IMG/VR virus record: IMGVR_UViG_3300045970_000225
Coordinates: 1 to 20,913 of that record
Source: a virus
Reading direction: 5' to 3' (one strand)
Length of the DNA: 20,913 nt
In this document: piece after piece, positions 11,996 to 20,913 of the stretch
Position numbering within the stretch: position 1 is the first letter of the stretch
Layout: each line of letters begins with the position of its first letter
Notes under the pieces: generated by a model
The model's database searches: none
What the model was told of the DNA's origin: nothing
Seen by the model: only the letters and a program-made list of their open reading frames with translations
Position numbers and translations under genes: made by a program

Positions 11996-12026
11996 GATTA
12001 CTCCAAATTTTTAATGCATTTAGGAA

Positions 12027-12049
12027 ATAGGGCGTGGTCGAAGCCCTAT
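12027..12049 (-). other. Hairpin just after the capsid gene
   Basis: On the coding strand ATAGGGC and GCCCTAT form a 7-bp stem around a 9-nt loop (TTCGACCAC), beginning about 5 nt after the capsid stop codon at 12054. Only three T residues follow, so it is a weak terminator at best. It could also protect the 3' end of a capsid message or lower read-through into the FI-position gene. Confidence 0.5.
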
Positions 12050-12053
12050 CAAA

Positions 12054-14027
12054 TTATCTGACCAGGGCATCGCTTTTGACGGCGAAGGCTTCCGGATGGC
12101 GCACAGCAACGTCGATACTTTGCAAAAGACGCAACTCGATCGCGCCAGCTTCGTAGACACCGGCGATGTAGGGGTTAGGCAGGATTTCCATTGCGCCCCA
12201 TTCCCCGACAAGCACTTGCTCCCAATCGCCGAAAAAGATTTCGGACAAGAGACCGATGGCTGTCCCTTTAGAAAGATTGGATCTGGCTTGGTTTGTGCGT
12301 CCGACTGGGTACGCGTTAATCTCACCTGGCGTCCCATCACGTTGACCAACGGGCGAATTGGTCCACAGATAGGCACCGGTGGTGGTTTTGAGTTTCTTCA
12401 GCGCGCCAATCACAGCCGCGTTCGTCAGGTAGCCAAGCGATGATCCATCTGCGTTCGCGGTGGTAACCAATGTTTCCAGGTCAATAAAGTCATCAATGCT
12501 GATCAAACTACCATTTGCGCCCCCGACCACAGACCCAATCCCCGTTTGGTTTGCGATGCCGAGCGGCTGTCCGCCAGCGCCGCTGCCATACAGCACGGCT
12601 GCGTCAATACCTAATGCAGCCGTGCGCAGCATATCTTGCCGCACCAGCATTTCGACGTCGGGCGTGGCCTGCATCAACATGTCGCGCGTGATGACAGACA
12701 ACATGCCCATCGTCTTTTTTGTCAGACTAATTGAATCAAAACCGCCGCCGCTCTGCGGCACTACGCCGTTTTCACTTACCCAAAAAACTGATCCAGCCGC
12801 TTTTTGCCGGGGAATGGTGACATTGCCGACCAAGCCGGACAGCATGCGTGCGCCCATCGACAACGCCAAAGATTTATTGCGCAGCAACTCAATAAAATTT
12901 TCGGCCATCAATTGTGTCGATACCAAATTTGCACCGCCCGACGTCGCGCTCAACCCTGCGCCGGTGCCGATGCTATAGTCAGCCGCTCGGCCTGATGCGA
13001 ACTGGATGTTCGTCGGCATGTAAAAACCTGCCGTCCGTTTTCCAGATGCTTTTTCAATCGCCAACGAAACTTCGCGTTCAAATCCTGCGTCGCCCCATGC
13101 GTCTTTGACATTGGTCCGCTCGTTAAAGGATGCATTGATCGCGCGGATCATGCTGTAACGTGCCTTTTCACGCTCGGTCAAGTCTGGATTGGTATTGTTA
13201 CCCAACGATACCGCCCCGTTACTACGTGCCATTACGATGTCCAAAACGTAGCCACGTGCCGCGTCAATCGGTGCGTGCAGCGTAATCATGCTATTGCGCA
13301 CTTCGTCCGGGATCTTGTGCGCTTTGCACATAGCGTCGATTTCCGCAACACGGGATGCTTCTAAAGCGGCTTTATCAACTGGTGGTTCGGTGATTACGGT
13401 CATTGTGATTCCCTTCGGTTGTTCGGCCACTGGTGCCGGGTTGGATGCGGATCGCGTGACTAACACGTCCATCAAATTATTTGCTGCGCCCCGGCCCACA
13501 CCCACCGAGACATCGGCTGGCACGGTGCACAAGGTTATTTCGTAGACTTCCCAGGATGTGGCTGTGTAGATGTCGCTATCCACATCGGTGGTATAGGTAT
13601 AGACCCGGTACATAAACGAGACGTTTTGCAAGATGCGGTCATTGACCTGCATCATTGCCCATTCGCCCCGTTCGTCTTTGCCAAAGCGGACGGTGCAATA
13701 GCCGCGCTTGTCGGCGCCGATCCAGGCCTTTTCAACTACCCCGAGAATGTCATCGAGATCGTGGTTATAGAGCAATGGCCCGCCGGAATTGATCCGCGCC
13801 AAGTTGGCCGAACCAGCCTGATGGCTCAGTATTTCGGTGCCATACCACATGTCCACCGCCGCTTCGCTTGAAAACGAAAAAGTGACGGTGCGTGTCTCGA
13901 TATCGACAATGCCGACCGGCACCTCTGTTTCAGCACCGCCTGCGTCCGCCATCAGCCGCACATACCGCGTCAACGGCCCGAGCTGGTTGACGCCGGATTC
14001 AAGTTTGCGTTTTGCAATTACCGTCAT
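12054..14027 (-). CDS. Fused prohead protease and HK97-type major capsid protein
   Basis: This 657-residue protein joins two functions. Residues 1-185 resemble the S78/U35 prohead protease: His89 (in PLLYNHDLDD), Ser137 (in RILQNVSFMYRV) and Glu163 (in WEVYEITLCTVPAD) are the likely catalytic residues. After a linker with helices (about 205-300), the HK97-fold capsid protein follows from about 325, with VTIPRQ, AVLYGSGAGGQPLGIANQTG and a C-terminal WGAMEILPNPY. The protease should remove itself and the delta-like linker during head maturation. I place the start at the ATG 14027 because GGAG lies 9 nt upstream (14037-14040); a TTG at 14042 would lie on top of that ribosome site. The cleavage site is not identifiable by eye. 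An intrinsic terminator directly precedes the gene. Confidence 0.92.
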   Translation of the reverse strand: MTVIAKRKLESGVNQLGPLTRYVRLMADAGGAETEVPVGIVDIETRTVTFSFSSEAAVDMWYGTEILSHQAGSANLARINSGGPLLYNHDLDDILGVVEKAWIGADKRGYCTVRFGKDERGEWAMMQVNDRILQNVSFMYRVYTYTTDVDSDIYTATSWEVYEITLCTVPADVSVGVGRGAANNLMDVLVTRSASNPAPVAEQPKGITMTVITEPPVDKAALEASRVAEIDAMCKAHKIPDEVRNSMITLHAPIDAARGYVLDIVMARSNGAVSLGNNTNPDLTEREKARYSMIRAINASFNERTNVKDAWGDAGFEREVSLAIEKASGKRTAGFYMPTNIQFASGRAADYSIGTGAGLSATSGGANLVSTQLMAENFIELLRNKSLALSMGARMLSGLVGNVTIPRQKAAGSVFWVSENGVVPQSGGGFDSISLTKKTMGMLSVITRDMLMQATPDVEMLVRQDMLRTAALGIDAAVLYGSGAGGQPLGIANQTGIGSVVGGANGSLISIDDFIDLETLVTTANADGSSLGYLTNAAVIGALKKLKTTTGAYLWTNSPVGQRDGTPGEINAYPVGRTNQARSNLSKGTAIGLLSEIFFGDWEQVLVGEWGAMEILPNPYIAGVYEAGAIELRLLQSIDVAVRHPEAFAVKSDALVR

Positions 14028-14040
14028 AAAGTAAAACTCC

Positions 14041-14076
14041 AAAAGAAAAAGCCCGCGCTATTGCTGGCGCGGGCTT
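14041..14076 (-). terminator. Intrinsic terminator between portal and capsid genes
   Basis: On the coding strand AGCCCGCGC and GCGCGGGCT form a 9-bp GC-rich stem with an 8-nt loop, followed at once by TTTTTCTTTT. The T tract abuts the GGAG ribosome site of the capsid gene. It lies 19 nt after the portal stop at 14095, in the middle of the structural operon and pointing along it, so unmodified polymerase should stop here. Confidence 0.85.
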
Positions 14077-14094
14077 CTGTGTGATCAATCAATG

Positions 14095-15684
14095 TTATTC
14101 GTTTTGGGGGTCGGATGCCGCTTGCTCTGGTGCCGGGTCGGGGACTTCTTGGCCTTGCACCGATCCCTTCAGATCCGTTTGGGCCGGGTCTGTATCAAAC
14201 ACAAGGCCAAGTTCGGCAATCATGTCCAGTTCGCGCCGTCGATTTTTAAGTAAGTCCTCAAGATCGGCATGTTCGGATGTCTGGCTGATGACTGAGTCCA
14301 GGGTCATAAAGCCACCTCGTACCGCTGCTTTGTATGCGGCAACTTCTTTTTGCGGATCGATCCACGACCAGCCGCGCGGTTTGAATAGAACCGCCCGATA
14401 TTTTCGTATCTTCGTGAAGTAGTCATTAATCGGCAACTGCCCGGACAAGACGGCGGCCCCGAGCCAGTCGCGATGAACGCCCCGGCGAAAATTGCGAATG
14501 TACCAGCCTTGGAGGATGCGCCACATATCACGATCCTCCAGCAGGGACAGGCGCGAAGCACTGTAATTTGACTGCGAATAATCACCCGACACGCTGGCAT
14601 ACGACACGCCGATACCGACAGCGAACGCCCTGAGCATATAGCGCATGAATGGATCAAGCCCGGCGTTTGGACGGGACGGGTTAAATCCGGTGAATTTTTC
14701 ACCTGGTTGCAGTTGCTGGATCGTGCCTGGCTCCATCGAGATCGTCGGCGCACCACCTTCATCTTCCGGGTTATCCGGCGTCAATCCTTCCTCACTTTCG
14801 ATGAGGCCGAAGATCGACGCCGCCGCACGGGCCGCTACAATTTCCGCTTCTTCGTAGCCTTGCATGTTATGCAGGCGTTTCAGGGTGGCGTGCAGCCACG
14901 GCACGCCACGCGTCTGGCCGATCCGGTCAGGGATGAAGAGATGGATCATGTCTTCGGCTGGCACGCGGATCAAGGCGCTGGCAACGAACGTGCTGAATTG
15001 ATAATCACCCGGATGTGACGGGTAGAGCCAATAGGCGACCGGTCGGCCCCATTGATTTTGTTCGACCCCCATGCGAATGACGTTACCGTTTTCAGCGCGG
15101 GCAACGCTCCATTGGTCAATCAGCCGGTCCGCCTCGATCAGTTCAAGTGCATACGGAATATTCGTGTCGCCAAACGGCATCCGCACCTTGCGGATCAATA
15201 CTTCCCCGTTTTCAACAATTGACCGGATAATCAATCGCTCCATGTCGGCAAAACACAGCTTCCCGGCTGGATCGCACGTATCTTTATCCGTCCATTCCAG
15301 CCATTCGTCCTCAATCAGGTCATTGATGCGAGTCATCAAGCTGCCGTCAGCATTGGTCACTTGCGCCTGCATCCCCACGCCGGTGCCGATCACGTTGTTG
15401 ACAATGATGCGGACCGCCGCCTTAGCGTATTCATTGTCGCGGATCAGCGCTCTGGACCGCGCCCGCAACTGGCGCAAGCTGGTGATGATTTCACTGTCGG
15501 CTGACGTATTCTGTGCCGACCAATCACCAGACAAGCGCCCCATCTGGGCACCGGCATACATACGCTTGCTGGTGTTCGCCTTGCTTAACAGCGCCTTTTG
15601 CGCAGCACGGTCGGCGTTCCACTTGGCGAGGACCACAGACCCCGGCTGACTTACCCGTGACTCGTCATAAAATTTTGTGGTCAT
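14095..15684 (-). CDS. Portal protein, lambda GpB family
   Basis: At 529 residues this protein fits the lambda-type portal family (PF05136). It forms the dodecameric ring at one capsid vertex through which DNA enters and leaves and on which terminase docks. Recognisable features are the early RSRALIRDNEYAKAAVRIIV (about 74-93) with NNVIGTGVGMQ, then WTDKDTCDPAGKLCFADMER, NGEVLIRKV, IHLFIPDRIGQTRGVPWLHA and the SGDYSQSNYSASRLSLLEDR region that is highly conserved in the family. The acidic Pro-rich end (about 505-529) is probably flexible. The ATG overlaps the stop of the gpW-position gene (ATGA). The lambda portal is longer and is followed by a separate protease; here the protease is fused to the capsid gene instead. 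Confidence 0.93.
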   Translation of the reverse strand: MTTKFYDESRVSQPGSVVLAKWNADRAAQKALLSKANTSKRMYAGAQMGRLSGDWSAQNTSADSEIITSLRQLRARSRALIRDNEYAKAAVRIIVNNVIGTGVGMQAQVTNADGSLMTRINDLIEDEWLEWTDKDTCDPAGKLCFADMERLIIRSIVENGEVLIRKVRMPFGDTNIPYALELIEADRLIDQWSVARAENGNVIRMGVEQNQWGRPVAYWLYPSHPGDYQFSTFVASALIRVPAEDMIHLFIPDRIGQTRGVPWLHATLKRLHNMQGYEEAEIVAARAAASIFGLIESEEGLTPDNPEDEGGAPTISMEPGTIQQLQPGEKFTGFNPSRPNAGLDPFMRYMLRAFAVGIGVSYASVSGDYSQSNYSASRLSLLEDRDMWRILQGWYIRNFRRGVHRDWLGAAVLSGQLPINDYFTKIRKYRAVLFKPRGWSWIDPQKEVAAYKAAVRGGFMTLDSVISQTSEHADLEDLLKNRRRELDMIAELGLVFDTDPAQTDLKGSVQGQEVPDPAPEQAASDPQNE

Positions 15685-16244
15685 TTGAACCTCACAAGCA
15701 AGCGACGTGGATTTTGCCCGCCATTGGCAATCACCTGGCGCGCGCGCTCACTGTTGACACGTTGTTGCCAGAATTGCCTTAGTGCCATCAAGTCAATAAG
15801 GCTGTGGAATTCGGTCTGGCGCGTACCGATGGAATAGCTTTTGATCTTGCCGCCCGACCCCTTGAACGATGCCAACGCGGCTTCACAATCGGCCAGGGCA
15901 CGTTCAGCAACCGAGCGCGCATCTATTGCACCATCGCCCGCCGACAGGTCAGCGCTGACCGTCAGCGTACCCTGGCCGATGGTCATGCGATGGTCTTGCA
16001 TGGACAGCTTTGCAGACCACGCATACTGGCCGGGCAACAGGCTGGCGCTGTCTGTGGCGCTGATGCTGCAATGCCAACCGTCGCCGTTTGCCACGCCGAC
16101 GACAGTCAGTTGTGACGGGCCTCTCAGGTAATAATTGAGGGTCCATTCGGCGCTGGTGTACTGCTCATGGGATGACGATAAGCACCATGGCGTATCGTCC
16201 CAAGAACCCGAATCACCGGCCACCATCATTAATGGTATTTTCAT
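15681..16244 (-). CDS. gpW-position head protein with a possible gpW-like C-terminus
   Basis: This 187-residue protein is encoded between large terminase and portal, where lambda has W (68 residues). The first ~100 residues are beta-rich and look like an immunoglobulin-like fold (SAEWTLNYYLRGPSQLTVVG, SISATDSASLLPGQYAWSAK). The C-terminal ~70 residues are helical: VAERALADCEAALASFKGS, then a KSYSIGTRQTEFHSLIDLMA segment and RQFWQQRVNSERAR. This helix, beta hairpin, helix order is like gpW, the connector that seals the packaged head. The gene could thus be a gpW extended by an N-terminal domain; that is an inference. I chose ATG 16244, which follows GGTGA at the terminase stop; GTG at 16250 or TTG at 16253 are possible. 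Confidence 0.62.
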   Translation of the reverse strand: MKIPLMMVAGDSGSWDDTPWCLSSSHEQYTSAEWTLNYYLRGPSQLTVVGVANGDGWHCSISATDSASLLPGQYAWSAKLSMQDHRMTIGQGTLTVSADLSAGDGAIDARSVAERALADCEAALASFKGSGGKIKSYSIGTRQTEFHSLIDLMALRQFWQQRVNSERARQVIANGGQNPRRLLVRFK

Positions 16245-16246
16245 AA

Positions 16247-18331
16247 TCACCAACTATTGGCAGAGAATCCACCGACCCGGCGTTGTTGCCGCAGCTTCGG
16301 TGTTTTAGGTTTAAGAGCTGGCGTTGGTTCAGCCGCTGGTGCTACTGCCTGCGGCTGTGCATCTTCATTTTCTGGCTCCTCGGAGGCGAGGGGCACAGCC
16401 AGAGGCACCGGATCGGCAGGGAAAAACATTTGCTTTTGCCGCAGTTGCATATCAATGGCATCCCAATACGACGGTTTCAGGAGATGCAGTTTTAGCGACA
16501 TGGCCGCGTGCAGCGCGTACACCTCACAATCCAACGCTTCGTTGCGCACACCGGCGCGAGGGGTCCAAACAAAGCGATTCCGCTGCTTTTTGTGTGGCGT
16601 TTTAACCTCGCTTGTGATCTGATCCCAGTAATCGGGACGGACCGACTTGTACCAATGCAGACGCCCCGGCCCTTTCCCCGTCAGCGACAAGCGCCCATCG
16701 ATCATTAAATCTTTGGCCCGATTCGTGCCGACGATGTACGGGCGCACGCCCGAGGGATGCGGCGTGTGATTGCCCCGCACGTCAATCGATTGCGACGGCT
16801 TGGCAAAAATTTCTTTGGCGGTGCCGGATTGTTCCGATGCACCTTTGATCGCCATGTAATTGCGCCCGGCCCGTTTGCGGACATAGGCATAGACTGCATC
16901 GGTGGTGGTCCCATCAGACGAGTCGACCGATACCGCGCTTATCGGCATTGGGTTACCGCTGGCGTGGAGAATCTCGCTGTTCAGCAGCGCGTCCAGGTCG
17001 AGCCATGCACCGCTGTTTTCGATGAGGGTTTGGCCGTAGATCTCGCCCCAATAGACTAACCAGGACTCCATCCCCCTGCCCCACGCTCTTATCACAATCG
17101 CAAGCCGGTTATGCTGCACGTCCACGCCAACAGTCAGTCGGCCACCGCCCCAAGGCACTGTCATTTCTGGATAATCTTCAGCGCGCGCGGCCAAGGCGTC
17201 CGCTTTGGGCACGTCGCTTTTATACTCGTATGGCAAGCCTTCGGTACTATTGCGAAACGCCCGCATTTTTGTGTCATCACCAGCCCGGAGGAGGTGATCG
17301 GCAACCAGGAATTTTTTCATCAACTCCTGCAAAACGCTACCCGGAAACGGGGAATACAACTCATTGATGTAAAAACCGGCGATGCCATAAAAAGCCGCTG
17401 TTGCAATCCATACGCCCTTGGTGACGTTGTGGTTTTTTTCGGCGTCATTCCATGCCGCACCGCAGTGCGGACAAATATAGCGCGCCGTCTCTGGTCGGGT
17501 ATGCCCAAAATTTTCATGGACGAATTCCGGGTCTTCCGTTGCCGTGACGTTTTCCCAGGCGAGGACATGCGTTTCACCACAATGGTGACAAGGGATAAAA
17601 AATTTCCGCTGGTCGCTCGACAGGTACGCTGTTTCGATCTTTGAGACACCTTTAACTGTCGGCGTCCCCCCGAACACAACCTTACTGCGCGGGAATGTCT
17701 TGACGCGCTCTTCCAGCAGCGTGATCGTGTCGCCTTGCTCGCGCACATTGTCGTTACAATCGTCCGGTTCTTCGACCGCGACAATCGGTGCCGGGGTCGA
17801 TTTCACAGAACTGGGCGAATTCGACCCAACCAGTTTCAGGAAACCGCCGCCAAAACTCTTGTAATCCCACCGGTTATCACTATTTTTGCGCCGCTGAATC
17901 TGCAATTTCGCGGCCAGCCGTGGCGTAACTTCGGCCATCGGAACGAATTTTTCCTCGGAGAATTCCTTCGCCGCCTTTTCTTTGGCGAACATGATGATCA
18001 TCGCGCATGGCTCTAGGTCAATTTTTTTCGCGACGTAATTGAGCAGGACGCCATCGGTCCATGCAATTTGCGCACTCTTCATCGCCACCATTTTTTTGAC
18101 CAGCGGATCATCCAATGCGTCGTGCATGCCGCGAACCCAGGGCGTTCTGTCCGGGTTGTAATCGCCCGGCTCGGCGGTGGTCTTACTCGACATCTTCCGG
18201 TGGGCACGGGCCCAATCGGTCAACGAGATGCGTTCCGCTGGCTCAATCAGCCCCGCTATCCGGCACAACAGCGATATGACGGCTGGCATCGTATCGAGCA
18301 AGGTGTCGGAAGGCGGCGTGCGTAAAGTCAT
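16247..18331 (-). CDS. Terminase large subunit, GpA family
   Basis: This 694-residue protein is the packaging motor and cos/pac nuclease of the lambda GpA type. Motifs in order: a Walker A-like KSAQIAWTDG at 85-94 (compare KSARVGYSKM in lambda), a Walker B-like IVAVEEPD at 183-190, a ...VVFGGTPTVKGVSKIE coupling segment near 218-233, a zinc-ribbon-like CHHC (248-251) with CPHC (287-290), and nuclease acidic residues Asp404 (VGVDVQHNRLA) and Asp470 (AVSVDSSDG). The C-terminus is Pro/Ala/Glu rich and probably disordered until the final RQQRRVGGFSANSW. The ATG 18331 follows AGGT by 6 nt and overlaps the small terminase gene by 89 nt, an unusually long but plausible overlap. An inner ATG at 18289 has no ribosome site. 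Confidence 0.94.
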   Translation of the reverse strand: MTLRTPPSDTLLDTMPAVISLLCRIAGLIEPAERISLTDWARAHRKMSSKTTAEPGDYNPDRTPWVRGMHDALDDPLVKKMVAMKSAQIAWTDGVLLNYVAKKIDLEPCAMIIMFAKEKAAKEFSEEKFVPMAEVTPRLAAKLQIQRRKNSDNRWDYKSFGGGFLKLVGSNSPSSVKSTPAPIVAVEEPDDCNDNVREQGDTITLLEERVKTFPRSKVVFGGTPTVKGVSKIETAYLSSDQRKFFIPCHHCGETHVLAWENVTATEDPEFVHENFGHTRPETARYICPHCGAAWNDAEKNHNVTKGVWIATAAFYGIAGFYINELYSPFPGSVLQELMKKFLVADHLLRAGDDTKMRAFRNSTEGLPYEYKSDVPKADALAARAEDYPEMTVPWGGGRLTVGVDVQHNRLAIVIRAWGRGMESWLVYWGEIYGQTLIENSGAWLDLDALLNSEILHASGNPMPISAVSVDSSDGTTTDAVYAYVRKRAGRNYMAIKGASEQSGTAKEIFAKPSQSIDVRGNHTPHPSGVRPYIVGTNRAKDLMIDGRLSLTGKGPGRLHWYKSVRPDYWDQITSEVKTPHKKQRNRFVWTPRAGVRNEALDCEVYALHAAMSLKLHLLKPSYWDAIDMQLRQKQMFFPADPVPLAVPLASEEPENEDAQPQAVAPAAEPTPALKPKTPKLRQQRRVGGFSANSW

Positions 18332-18728
18332 TCAGTACCTGTACATCGAGATTAATTCCGTACAACTGATCCAGGTTGGCCTTGATCTTGTCGTCACGCG
18401 CCAGCAACTCGGTTTTCCATGCGCCGACCATCTGCATCAACGCCGGTTCAAGCTGCGCCACGTTGATCAATTGCGCCTTCTTTTCCGCGAGCACTAATTG
18501 TTTCATTTCGCGCTCAACGCGCTCGGTGAGAACGCGCTCACTCACCAGGTCGGCGCCGGTGCTGCTCACATGCCCGGACGCCTGCGCCCGCAATTGGCGG
18601 ATATACGCAAACCGCACCTCATCTAGCGTGGCGGTACGCCAATCAAAATCCGCTTGTTTAAAGAAGCGGCTAACAGCAGATTGATCCAGGTCGAGATGGG
18701 CAGCGATTTCAGTCTGAGTCAGTGCCAT
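18243..18728 (-). CDS. Terminase small subunit (Nu1/DUF1441-like)
   Basis: This 161-residue protein is encoded just before the large terminase. It begins with a helix-turn-helix (MALTQTEIAAHLDLDQSAVS, RFFKQADFDW), a winged-helix start typical of gpNu1-type subunits that recognise the packaging site. It continues with a long helix rich in Glu/Lys (ERVEREMKQLVLAEKKAQLI) and ends in VQVLNDFTHAAFRHLARY, probably the contact to the large subunit. I chose the second ATG (18728) because AAGGA lies 5 nt upstream; the ATG at 18734 overlaps that site. Family naming rests on the N-terminal HTH, the length and the neighbour. Confidence 0.82.
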   Translation of the reverse strand: MALTQTEIAAHLDLDQSAVSRFFKQADFDWRTATLDEVRFAYIRQLRAQASGHVSSTGADLVSERVLTERVEREMKQLVLAEKKAQLINVAQLEPALMQMVGAWKTELLARDDKIKANLDQLYGINLDVQVLNDFTHAAFRHLARYDASRHIAVVPDSGAD

Positions 18729-18866
18729 AAACATCCTTGTTTGGGCCTGAATATGACCCCCTTACAATGCAGCAAAATAAAGAGTTTTCGGGGTCTTCGT
18801 ACCCGCAGTGTCGGTGTGTCCGGTAAGTACCTTGGGATTTTTTAGAGGCTGGCGGCTGCATCAGGC
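18729..18866. other. Noncoding gap upstream of terminase; candidate packaging site
   Basis: About 138 nt separate the gpZ-like gene from small terminase, and I see no gene in them. On the plus strand there is an inverted repeat GGTA-ag-TACC at 18822-18831 and a GGGT-cttcgt-ACCC hairpin at 18791-18804, besides the AAGGA ribosome site of the small terminase. In lambda, cos lies just before nu1, so this is the natural place for a packaging initiation site, but no cos sequence is recognisable. Confidence 0.3.
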
Positions 18867-19451
18867 CTAGCCCTTGCGACCGAAGCGCTTGATCTGCGCA
18901 CGCAGTAGCTCAGGGAACTTTTGCCCAATGAATGCAGTAACCGCATCGACCACGGCTTGGTTGTTGGCGGCATCGGGGATGCTGGGGCCGTACAGTTCTT
19001 TGATGGGTAAGCCGCTCCATTGCGTGCGCCCATTCTTGCTGACCTTTTTGTGGGCCTTGCCCATCCTCACGTACACACCACGGTGGCCGTTGGGCATGGT
19101 GGCGATGAATGCGCCTGCAATGACCTTACGACCGTTAAGGACCGACACGGACACACCGCGTGCAGTTTGGCGGGCACCGTACTTGACCAAGGATAGCGGG
19201 CGGCCCTTGGCCGTTATCTTCGCTGTCAGCTGGCCTGAGCGGGCCGGGCGAACTGTCAAGCCATCCTTGACATCGCCAATCTTGAGATTGTAGCCAACTG
19301 CCTTGATTTGCCGGGCTGTTTGATTCTTTGCCTGCTCGATTGTCTTGTTGATTGCTGCTGGTAGTGCAGCGTCGAGCACATCACGCCTCACTGATCGCAG
19401 ATCGGCGATGATCTTGCCCATGTCGCCACGCACGTCTACTTTGATACCCAT
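18867..19451 (-). CDS. Minor tail protein Z-like (GpZ family)
   Basis: This 194-residue basic protein closely fits the prophage minor tail protein Z family (lambda gpZ has 192 residues), which acts at the head-proximal end of the tail during joining. Typical parts are the N-terminal MGIKVDVRGDMGKIIADLRS, the AALPAAINKTIEQAKNQTAR helix at about 28-47, the RPLSLVKYGARQTARGVSVS segment, the AFIATMPNGHRGVYVRMGKA segment, and the closing VVDAVTAFIGQKFPELLRAQ helix followed by IKRFGRKG. The ATG follows AAGG by 6 nt. Its location is odd: it lies before terminase instead of between the head-tail joining and tail terminator genes. Confidence 0.82.
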   Translation of the reverse strand: MGIKVDVRGDMGKIIADLRSVRRDVLDAALPAAINKTIEQAKNQTARQIKAVGYNLKIGDVKDGLTVRPARSGQLTAKITAKGRPLSLVKYGARQTARGVSVSVLNGRKVIAGAFIATMPNGHRGVYVRMGKAHKKVSKNGRTQWSGLPIKELYGPSIPDAANNQAVVDAVTAFIGQKFPELLRAQIKRFGRKG

Positions 19452-19500
19452 GGCACACCTTGAAAGCCCCGCCGACCATCAGGCCAGCGGGTAGCACCGA

Positions 19501-19851
19501 TTACGAAAAGGCGAAACCGAAGCCGGATGGAAGCCACTGCATCTCAGCGGTGGCGGTATCGCCACCCTGCACCGTGGCTGTGTCGATGATGGTCGGTACA
19601 GTGCAGGTATCGCGGATCGCATCGCAGACGGGCAGGCCATCGGCTGTCACCGGTTGGGCAAACACCGCGTAATCGCCGCCATCGACGCCCTTAAAATCGA
19701 CTTCCCACAACTTATCACCGTCAACGGTGATGGTTTCAACGCGGGGAATGCTCGTTGCAACCGAGACCAGCGAAATCATGATGGCTGCACAAACCAAATT
19801 GTTTGTGATTGGACTGCGCTGGCGTTTCAGAATAACTTTTACATCGACCAT
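19501..19851 (-). CDS. Hypothetical protein, 116 residues, with an N-terminal hydrophobic segment
   Basis: I do not recognise this protein. It begins MVDVKVILKRQRSPITNN, has a hydrophobic stretch LVCAAIMISLVSVATSI (about 19-35) that could be a membrane anchor, then a beta-like domain (TITVDGDKLWEVDFKGVDGG, DYAVFAQPVTADGLPV) with two cysteines nine apart (CDAIRDTCTVP), and ends GFGFAFS. I chose ATG 19851 because GAGG lies 5 nt upstream; the frame is open further upstream but that part is unlike a protein and runs through a terminator. It lies after two tandem terminators and 49 nt before the gpZ-like gene. It could be a minor virion or membrane-associated protein. Confidence 0.6.
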   Translation of the reverse strand: MVDVKVILKRQRSPITNNLVCAAIMISLVSVATSIPRVETITVDGDKLWEVDFKGVDGGDYAVFAQPVTADGLPVCDAIRDTCTVPTIIDTATVQGGDTATAEMQWLPSGFGFAFS

Positions 19852-19875
19852 ATATACCTCAGAGTTGGTACTGCG

Positions 19876-19898
19876 AAAAACCCGGCAAAAGCACCGGG
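19876..19898 (-). terminator. Second, weaker terminator of a tandem pair
   Basis: On the coding strand CCCGG and CCGGG form a 5-bp stem around TGCTTTTG, followed by TTTTTCGC. It comes 5 nt after the T tract of the stronger hairpin at 19904-19936 and 25 nt before the start of the 116-residue protein. Confidence 0.5.
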
Positions 19899-19903
19899 GG
19901 AAT

Positions 19904-19936
19904 AAAAAAGCCCGCTGGTCATGACAACCAGCGGGC
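19904..19936 (-). terminator. Strong intrinsic terminator inside the late region
   Basis: On the coding strand GCCCGCTGGT and ACCAGCGGGC form a perfect 10-bp stem with a 7-nt loop, followed directly by TTTTTT. It lies 30 nt after the stop of the 58-residue membrane protein and before the 116-residue ORF, pointing along the late operon. Confidence 0.88.
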
Positions 19937-19966
19937 CAAGGCTCCAAAGCTGGGAACCGGAGACGA

Positions 19967-20143
19967 TCAGTTGCAGCCAGCGACGCCGCGAAACGCCATG
20001 CTCGACAGCCAGGACCACAGCGCCAGCACGCCCAACAGGCCAGCGACACAGAACCAGCACGCCAGCCGGGCGAGCATCTCGGATGTGATCCGGTCGCGCG
20101 CCGCCTTGAGCTTCGAGACAATCCAGTTTGATAATTTATTCAA
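19967..20143 (-). CDS. Small membrane protein, 58 residues, one transmembrane segment
   Basis: The start is a TTG at 20143 that overlaps the stop of the preceding small ORF (TTGAATAA), with AGAGGA 8 nt upstream, so coupled translation is likely. The protein has a basic N-terminal helix (NKLSNWIVSKLKAARDRITS) and one hydrophobic segment near the C-terminus (LACWFCVAGLLGVLALWSWL, about 29-48). Lambda has its holin and lysis genes at this place, between the late promoter and terminase, and small membrane proteins are common here. It could be a holin-like or superinfection-exclusion protein, but no family is recognised and no endolysin is next to it. The same frame is open up to an ATG at 20320, but the extra part looks noncoding. 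Confidence 0.5.
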   Translation of the reverse strand: MNKLSNWIVSKLKAARDRITSEMLARLACWFCVAGLLGVLALWSWLSSMAFRGVAGCN

Positions 20144-20306
20144 TTTTTTTATCCTCTTGCGAAGGTGTGGCGGGCGCGGCGGCTTCGTATTGCCAGTGCA
20201 GCAGATGCCGGATTGCTGGACCATCGGGCGGTATTGTTTTGGATGCGCGCCGCGCTGCCAGATATGCCGCCAATTCCGCCCTTGTGGGCTTGTGGATGAT
20301 CTGCAT
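20136..20306 (-). CDS. Hypothetical protein, 56 residues
   Basis: A short hydrophilic protein (MQIIHKPTRAELAAYLAARR, continuing to HLLHWQYEAAAP and ending QEDKKIE) of unknown function, with a predicted helix at about 9-22. The ATG at 20306 follows an A-rich stretch with only a weak ribosome site. An upstream TTG at 20330 would fall inside the terminator stem and is unlikely. It is the first gene after the promoter and terminator, and its stop overlaps the start of the next ORF. Its codon use and amino acid content look more natural than those of the overlapping 117-codon frame, so I prefer it. Confidence 0.5.
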   Translation of the reverse strand: MQIIHKPTRAELAAYLAARRASKTIPPDGPAIRHLLHWQYEAAAPATPSQEDKKIE

Positions 20307-20328
20307 CTTTTTTTTGACATGTAAACGC

Positions 20329-20356
20329 AAAAAGCCCGGCTTTTAGGGCCGGGCTT
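20329..20356 (-). terminator. tR'-like intrinsic terminator just after the late promoter
   Basis: On the coding strand AAGCCCGGC and GCCGGGCTT form a perfect 9-bp stem with a 7-nt loop (CCTAAAA), and the T tract (TTTTT) continues from the stem. From the predicted start near 20388 the stopped transcript would be about 60 nt. This is the short leader expected of a Q-controlled late promoter. The plus-strand side also ends in CTTCTTT and may act weakly in the other direction. Confidence 0.85.
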
Positions 20357-20367
20357 CTTTGGACGGA

Positions 20368-20423
20368 ATTATGAGACTTATCAAATTAGTGCCCATAATC
20401 GAGGTATTACATCGGTTTGTCAA
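20368..20423 (-). promoter_or_regulatory. pR'-like late promoter with possible pause element
   Basis: On the coding strand a perfect -35 box TTGACA (20423-20418), a 17-bp spacer and GATTAT (20400-20395, 4 of 6 matches to the -10 consensus) form a strong sigma70-type promoter. It starts 8 nt after the stop of the Q-like gene. Transcription should begin near 20388. A second -10-like hexamer, CATAAT (5 of 6 matches, 20373-20368), lies about 15-20 nt downstream of that start, where lambdoid late promoters carry a sigma-dependent pause signal. Promoter calling is direct; the pause role is an inference. Confidence 0.78.
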
Positions 20424-20430
20424 GAATTTC

Positions 20431-20847
20431 TTAAAATTGCGCGCCGACCGGCCCATTCTCGAATGCCGCATCGAGCCGGGTCATCGCATCCTTTTCAATG
20501 TTTTTAAGCGCCTTGGCGATGGCTTCCGCGTAGCCTTTGACCGTGGTCGGGTGCAGGCCGCATTGGGTTGCGATTTGCTTCAACTGCTTTTTATCGTCTT
20601 TGCGCTCGAAGAAGCGCACAACACATTCGCGCCGCACCAGGGCGTCAGCGCGGCTGATGGCCGGGATCGCCACACGGACATAATCGGTCAGCAGTGCAAT
20701 CGCGGCTGTCCATTGCCTGTTTGGCTTGATCCCAGCACAGCACGGCGATGTGCAGTCACACGCGAAAGATCGTTGCACCATCTTGGCAATGATCACAGCC
20801 CGTTCTGGTTCGGCTGGCAAAGCGTTTTCAAACCGCGCTTTGATCAT
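20431..20847 (-). CDS. Putative late antitermination protein (Q-like)
   Basis: This 138-residue protein heads the region. A cysteine cluster, Cys30, Cys32, Cys36 and Cys37 (FACDCTSPCCAGIKPNRQW), could bind zinc. The C-terminal third holds a likely helix-turn-helix (KQLKQIATQCGLHPTTVKGY at about 87-106), similar in shape to a sigma70 region 4 or DNA-binding domain. Small Cys-rich, HTH-bearing proteins of this size at the end of the delayed early region are often annotated as Q-type antiterminators. The placement strongly supports this: a promoter starts 8 nt after its stop and an intrinsic terminator follows, as in lambda Q-pR'-tR'. The ATG 20847 has a GGCGGG-rich leader; the frame is open to the window end, so a longer N-terminus is possible. 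A general HTH regulator is the alternative. Confidence 0.6.
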   Translation of the reverse strand: MIKARFENALPAEPERAVIIAKMVQRSFACDCTSPCCAGIKPNRQWTAAIALLTDYVRVAIPAISRADALVRRECVVRFFERKDDKKQLKQIATQCGLHPTTVKGYAEAIAKALKNIEKDAMTRLDAAFENGPVGAQF

Positions 20848-20913
20848 GCCCGCCTGGCCGCCACCGGCCTCGCCACCCAGGCCGCGCCCCGGCCTGCTTG
20901 GCTCTACCGCTAA

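Follow-up and report, generated by a model that had tools for sequence, protein, structure and literature searches.

A conserved promoter-terminator unit behind a phage regulator gene: a likely late-gene control system of the Q/AlpA type

Introduction

A promoter followed within about 60 nt by an intrinsic terminator, and both placed between a regulator gene and the late operon of a phage, raises the question of how RNA polymerase reaches the late genes and whether the adjacent gene encodes the protein that lets it do so. Such an arrangement is present in the window studied here, the whole stretch of DNA that was analysed, which is a 20,913-base IMG/VR virus record with a tailed-phage late operon on the minus strand. 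Three phage Q families have been described, plus AlpA and GafZ. In late promoters of the lambda type, sigma region 2 is retained by a -10-like sequence soon after initiation, and Q loads while the polymerase is paused there (PMC6606751, PMC9371919). A site between the -35 and -10 elements plus a -10-like pause sequence is common to AlpA, 21Q and lambda Q (PMC9371919, PMC6606751), and AlpA is a demonstrated antiterminator (PMC7969949), its N-terminal part forming a ring inside the RNA exit channel (PMC9371919).

Organization of the window

The features of the locus, all on the minus strand, are the following.

20431-20913, minus: regulator gene, 3' part (160 codons and stop; 5' end past the contig), encoding a CxC..CC motif and, at the C-terminus, an HTH; a Q/AlpA-type antiterminator is proposed
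20433-20431, minus: stop codon TAA of the regulator gene, read from the sequence
20418-20423, minus: -35 element TTGACA, perfect, 8 nt beyond the TAA; in 50/52 units the position is occupied by TTGA/C or TGAC
20417-20401, minus: promoter spacer of 17 bp, read from the sequence
20397-20417, minus: spacer dyad AACCGATG-TAATA-CCTCGATT, with 5/7 inner pairs matching; proposed regulator binding element, from its fixed place and covariation
20395-20400, minus: -10 element GATTAT; its second and fifth positions are A in 50/52 units
20377-20382, minus: GATAAG at ~+7 to +12 of the predicted transcript, a proposed -10-like element at which sigma would cause a pause; TA kept in 47/52 units at a fixed distance from the dyad
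20361-20365, minus: CGTCC motif, proposed pause location; conserved in the 62-nt profile, 14-15 nt past the TA of GATA across the units and, in the window, 15 nt past the T of this TA
20329-20359, minus: intrinsic terminator (tR'-like), hairpin AAGAAGCCCGGC-CCTAAAA-GCCGGGCTTTTT with T5 at 20333-20329; -19.7 kcal/mol, z -4.5
18243-20328, minus: start of the late operon, with small ORFs, a GpZ/neck-like protein (19451-18867) and the terminase small subunit (18734-18243); Minor_tail_Z E=1.9e-12, phrog_27 1.4e-27, phrog_57 8.3e-17
19881-19937, minus: two more terminator-like hairpins within the late operon; folding energy of 19937-19909, -23.5 kcal/mol
16247-18331, minus: terminase large subunit (GpA family), with more late ORFs downstream on the same strand; PF20454 E=1.6e-81, PF05876 E=9.8e-71, ORF list
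14047-14078, minus: terminator-like hairpin between the large late ORFs 15684-14095 and 14042-12054; -22.1 kcal/mol

A sequence-only reading of this DNA had described, behind an HTH gene, TTGACA and GATTAT separated by 17 bp and followed by a GC-rich hairpin and a T tract, which was confirmed on the minus strand at 20423-20329. The predicted promoter, matching 10/12 consensus positions and being the top promoter-like match within 12000-20913, gives the same start (~20388) and leader (~60 nt) as proposed there. The 9-bp GC-rich stem of that reading stands as a hairpin, its GC core having 7 bp and reaching 9 bp if two A-T pairs are included. By itself, this arrangement is weak evidence; promoter-like sites alone are only weakly above chance (11 found vs 5.5 +/- 2.4 expected).

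The hairpins inside the late operon would be obstacles to late transcription, bypassed by a processive antiterminator. Regarding the remainder of the window, a 662-aa ORF (12054-14042, minus strand) lies at the place of a head gene, with a length that would allow a fused protease and major capsid protein, and positions 3-342 hold 63-bp tandem repeats (96% matches) and related periods, possibly from a repetitive tail protein.

The regulator family

The window regulator is truncated, since its frame is open to the contig end and its homologues start ~30-35 residues further upstream; the 138-residue protein assumed earlier came from an arbitrary internal start in a frame of 160 open codons. Family members have ~185-210 residues, with a G-rich conserved N-terminal motif and a C-terminal HTH, and the Cys residues (CxC..CC) are invariant in the main alignment. 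The window protein is a lone branch, with 25-39% identity to other members, and used alone as a query it found no close relatives among viral contigs.

Relatives found by tblastn, all of them unnamed proteins, are present in phage Bcep176 (gp2), Shewanella phage QDWS and Bordetella phage PHB09, where the regulator gene closes the early region and the terminase genes come next. In profile-guided scans, viral contigs yielded at least 205 stretches, of which 80 were kept, and bacterial genomes yielded 24, the bacterial carriers being mostly Burkholderiales and other betaproteobacteria, going by genome names. When grouped at 85% identity, the homologues form 63 protein clusters. The best reading is that the family is widespread in betaproteobacterial phages. 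A distant 233-aa relative is encoded in Edwardsiella phage ZHS (L004:5689-6390), where a unit scoring weakly, at 18.9 bits, lies 1.3 kb downstream, and the family may reach past temperate betaproteobacterial phages.

As the sequence-only reading had expected, the regulator is unlike lambda Q: when profiles of the Q families were searched (Pfam, NCBIfam and PHROGs, including DUF1133), no Q model was among the matches listed for the 63 members, which gave only weak generic HTH/sigma region 4 matches to family models. Literature searches, with most subscription papers outside their coverage, found no description of the family.

Conservation of the 62-nt unit

Alignment of the DNA downstream of the regulator genes revealed a unit of four parts, namely the dyad in the -35/-10 spacer, the GATA element 25 bp further on, the CGTCC motif and the terminator, which was scored with a leave-one-out 62-nt profile. 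The unit occurs downstream of the regulator gene, on the same strand, in 54 of the 63 protein clusters, at a distance of up to 250 nt in 40 of them and of up to 2 kb, past inserted genes, in 14. Only two matches to the profile were found on the other strand in ~0.8 Mb, both weak. No unit was scored in the other nine clusters, two of which (L033/L035/L110 and L107) show one by eye.

In the window, the unit is the sole profile match, scoring 42 bits, compared to -1.4 for the runner-up; the best of 1,260 shuffled regions reached 6.5 and reverse complements at most 2.1. A chance promoter-like match beside an end-of-operon terminator could be proposed, given that the consensus matches of promoter and terminator, each by itself, show no clear excess over shuffles, but a leave-one-out match of that size to a profile from other phages, together with the conservation of the unit across the clusters, makes such a coincidence hardly credible.

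A reverse test with DNA patterns alone retrieved six contigs, five with the gene next to a full unit and the sixth with neither; this test is only partly independent, because several of the contigs were already in the set. Two stricter patterns matched zero or one contig. Late genes or HNH were detected within 3 kb in 21/63 clusters by phmmer, with few late-protein queries and short flanks.

Different genes are found between the regulator gene and the unit. In L068 (3584-4184), two small genes resemble a RelE-type toxin and an HTH antitoxin; L012, L041 and L047 likewise have inserted genes at this place; and in Achromobacter phage CF418P1 (L027:3650-3736) an annotated tRNA-Val separates both elements.

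Initially transcribed region and terminator

The placement of the GATA element fits a sigma-dependent pause element by analogy with the lambda-type promoters. Its hexamer matches the -10 hexamer only in part, so that the element is a candidate for such a pause.

A strict terminator, beginning ~22 nt past GATA, is present in 46/52 units, compared to 1.3% of random 67-mers. This count was obtained by allowing loops of up to 20 nt; with loops of up to 10 nt, split-stem hairpins were missed and the count was 28/52. A clear terminator is absent from two units, L098 and L100.

As a promoter and a terminator yield a short RNA by default, the unit might instead be a small-RNA gene, composed of a promoter, an RNA of ~60 nt and its terminator hairpin, and weak Rfam sRNA matches point in this direction. 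Every one of these matches is, however, under the gathering score, the window leader has no stable fold apart from the terminator, and what is conserved is the promoter dyad and the elements in fixed register with it, while the hairpin sequence varies, so that a small-RNA gene seems very unlikely.

The spacer dyad and its recognition

The dyad is an inverted repeat with a 5-nt centre, constantly 25 bp upstream of the GATA element, and 51 distinct sites were compared. A first test with free -10 placement gave a blurred result, because the -10 moves up to 3 bp relative to the dyad, and a later test anchored on GATA resolved it. The arms pair at 4.63/6 positions, vs 2.86 for arms exchanged among different phages (z=11.9, 51 sites), and the signal appears at a single centre among the 40 tested. 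The half-sites vary by lineage (GTGCA, CCGCA, CGACA, GGGCA, GTGAT and others), and every variant comes with its complement in the other arm. The window dyad is imperfect and, taken alone, not significant (p=0.19).

Among 155 variable protein columns, the top mutual information with the dyad belongs to the recognition-helix residue before the conserved Thr (z 14.5, next 9.1). The identity of this residue follows dyad positions 8/22 and 10/20, which are symmetric, with N paired to TGnG, D to TCCG and Q to TCGA, and the symmetric dyad positions remain the top DNA columns with 17 representatives under 50% identity. The window protein has Thr at this specificity residue, and its half-sites are CCGATG/TCGAGG. 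As the arms covary and the recognition-helix residue predicts the half-site, the regulator very probably reads the spacer dyad, judging from these sequence comparisons. In L028 and L031, the -10 element is 2-3 bp further from the dyad with an unchanged dyad-to-GATA spacing, which suggests that the register of the pause counts for more than that of the promoter.

An HTH protein reading a spacer dyad would also fit a repressor or a spacer-binding activator, and the regulator could be an ordinary late-promoter protein of this kind, the hairpin just ending the early transcript without being a target of antitermination. The promoter is, however, already near consensus, so that no activator is needed, and the terminator occupies a near-fixed place between the promoter and the late genes in most units, so late transcription must pass it. 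In addition, such a protein would leave the GATA and CGTCC elements, downstream of the -10 and in fixed register with the dyad, to be explained. Ordinary activation or repression is thus regarded as improbable, and late control by antitermination is preferred.

Predicted structure of the regulator

Two AlphaFold2 models were compared with solved structures, one for a full-length member (pLDDT 88.6) and one for the window fragment (pLDDT 87.4). For both, the top Foldseek match in the PDB is AlpA in RNA polymerase loading/loaded complexes (7xya, 7xyb), with probability 1.00, TM 0.54-0.68 and modest E-values (7.8e-3), the next-best probabilities being 0.47 and 0.75. In the viral structure library, the third match is a protein annotated as 'Antitermination protein Q', with probability 0.98. 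Solved structures searched by sequence profile gave only generic HTH matches, and no similarity to AlpA was detectable in this way. The regulator is thus predicted from the models to have an AlpA/21Q-type fold, with an N-terminal ring-forming segment and a C-terminal HTH. In the models, the AlpA match spans most of the chain, which also argues against an ordinary activator or repressor.

Comparison with known antiterminators

Similar to the unit described here, the AlpA system of Pseudomonas aeruginosa (promoter PalpB, terminator tB) has its binding element in the -35/-10 spacer and a terminator shortly downstream, and the -10-like sequence early in its transcript has a candidate counterpart in the GATA element (PMC7969949, PMC9371919). 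The AlpA residues K138-S139-T140 of the HTH, located in the major groove, would correspond, going by the motif only, to the regulator residue that precedes the conserved Thr. Besides these similarities, AlpA controls a cell-death operon, compared to the phage late-gene position found here, and its site is a single GGGACG, not a dyad.

The lambdoid Q systems (lambda Q, 21Q, 82Q; pR'-tR') resemble the regulator in that the gene ends the early region with the promoter right behind it, and the unit in having a site in the spacer, a leader terminator and the late genes beyond it. In its Cys motif the family is reminiscent of lambda Q, which reportedly possesses a zinc finger, and the leader of ~60 nt differs from the 194 nt of the lambda late leader. 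The 21Q sites are direct repeats (PMC6606751), whereas the dyad of the regulator is inverted.

GafZ of Caulobacter crescentus also has a palindrome between the -35 and -10 elements, required for its binding, and terminators are read through in a phage-like late cluster (PMC11150451). GafZ differs in having GafY and IHF as partners, and joint action with NusA/G/E has been proposed for it.

Proposed mechanism and significance

The unit and its regulator are, with high likelihood, a phage late-gene control system of the Q/AlpA type with an uncharacterised antiterminator family. The comparative evidence supports the conserved unit, its binding site, an HTH that reads this site and a fold predicted to be AlpA-like, and from them we infer antitermination by the family. 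As the best reading, the order of the genes, the place of the site and the fold predicted for the protein all fit the Q/AlpA functional class, with the family outside every described Q sequence family testable here. The earlier suggestion of a less studied Q family with a promoter-terminator pair therefore gained support from the co-occurrence in the 54 clusters, the residue-dyad covariation, the AlpA-like models and the lack of a Q family match.

In the proposed mechanism, the regulator would be produced at the end of the early operon and bind the spacer dyad of the promoter behind its own gene, probably as two protomers in two-fold symmetry. RNA polymerase would then pause as sigma region 2 re-binds the GATA/TA at ~+8, with the active site near CGTCC; the pause itself is predicted at ~+22 to +24. 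The regulator would load onto the paused polymerase, its N-terminal segment acting as a nozzle in a narrowed RNA exit channel, and polymerase modified in this way would pass the terminator at ~+60 and the hairpins in the late operon; without the regulator, only the ~60-nt leader would be made. A broader proposal, which we hold to have about even chances, is that the family is homologous to AlpA, that two protomers occupy the spacer inverted repeat, that one recognition-helix residue (N, D or Q, with the half-sites given above) sets the private late-promoter specificity of each phage, and that AlpA is a host-adopted member of these phage late regulators.

More Q-like antiterminators are expected to be found by structure (PMC9371919), and the regulator family looks like one of these; its members are numerous, each has a defined DNA target, and the specificity rule can be tested. 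The family would give a name to genes annotated as 'hypothetical protein' where early and late regions meet in many phages of Burkholderiales and other proteobacteria, as well as locate the late promoters of the phages carrying the regulator. In addition, it would supply natural protein-site pairs for learning how antiterminators choose promoters, and the short leaders may simplify in vitro work.
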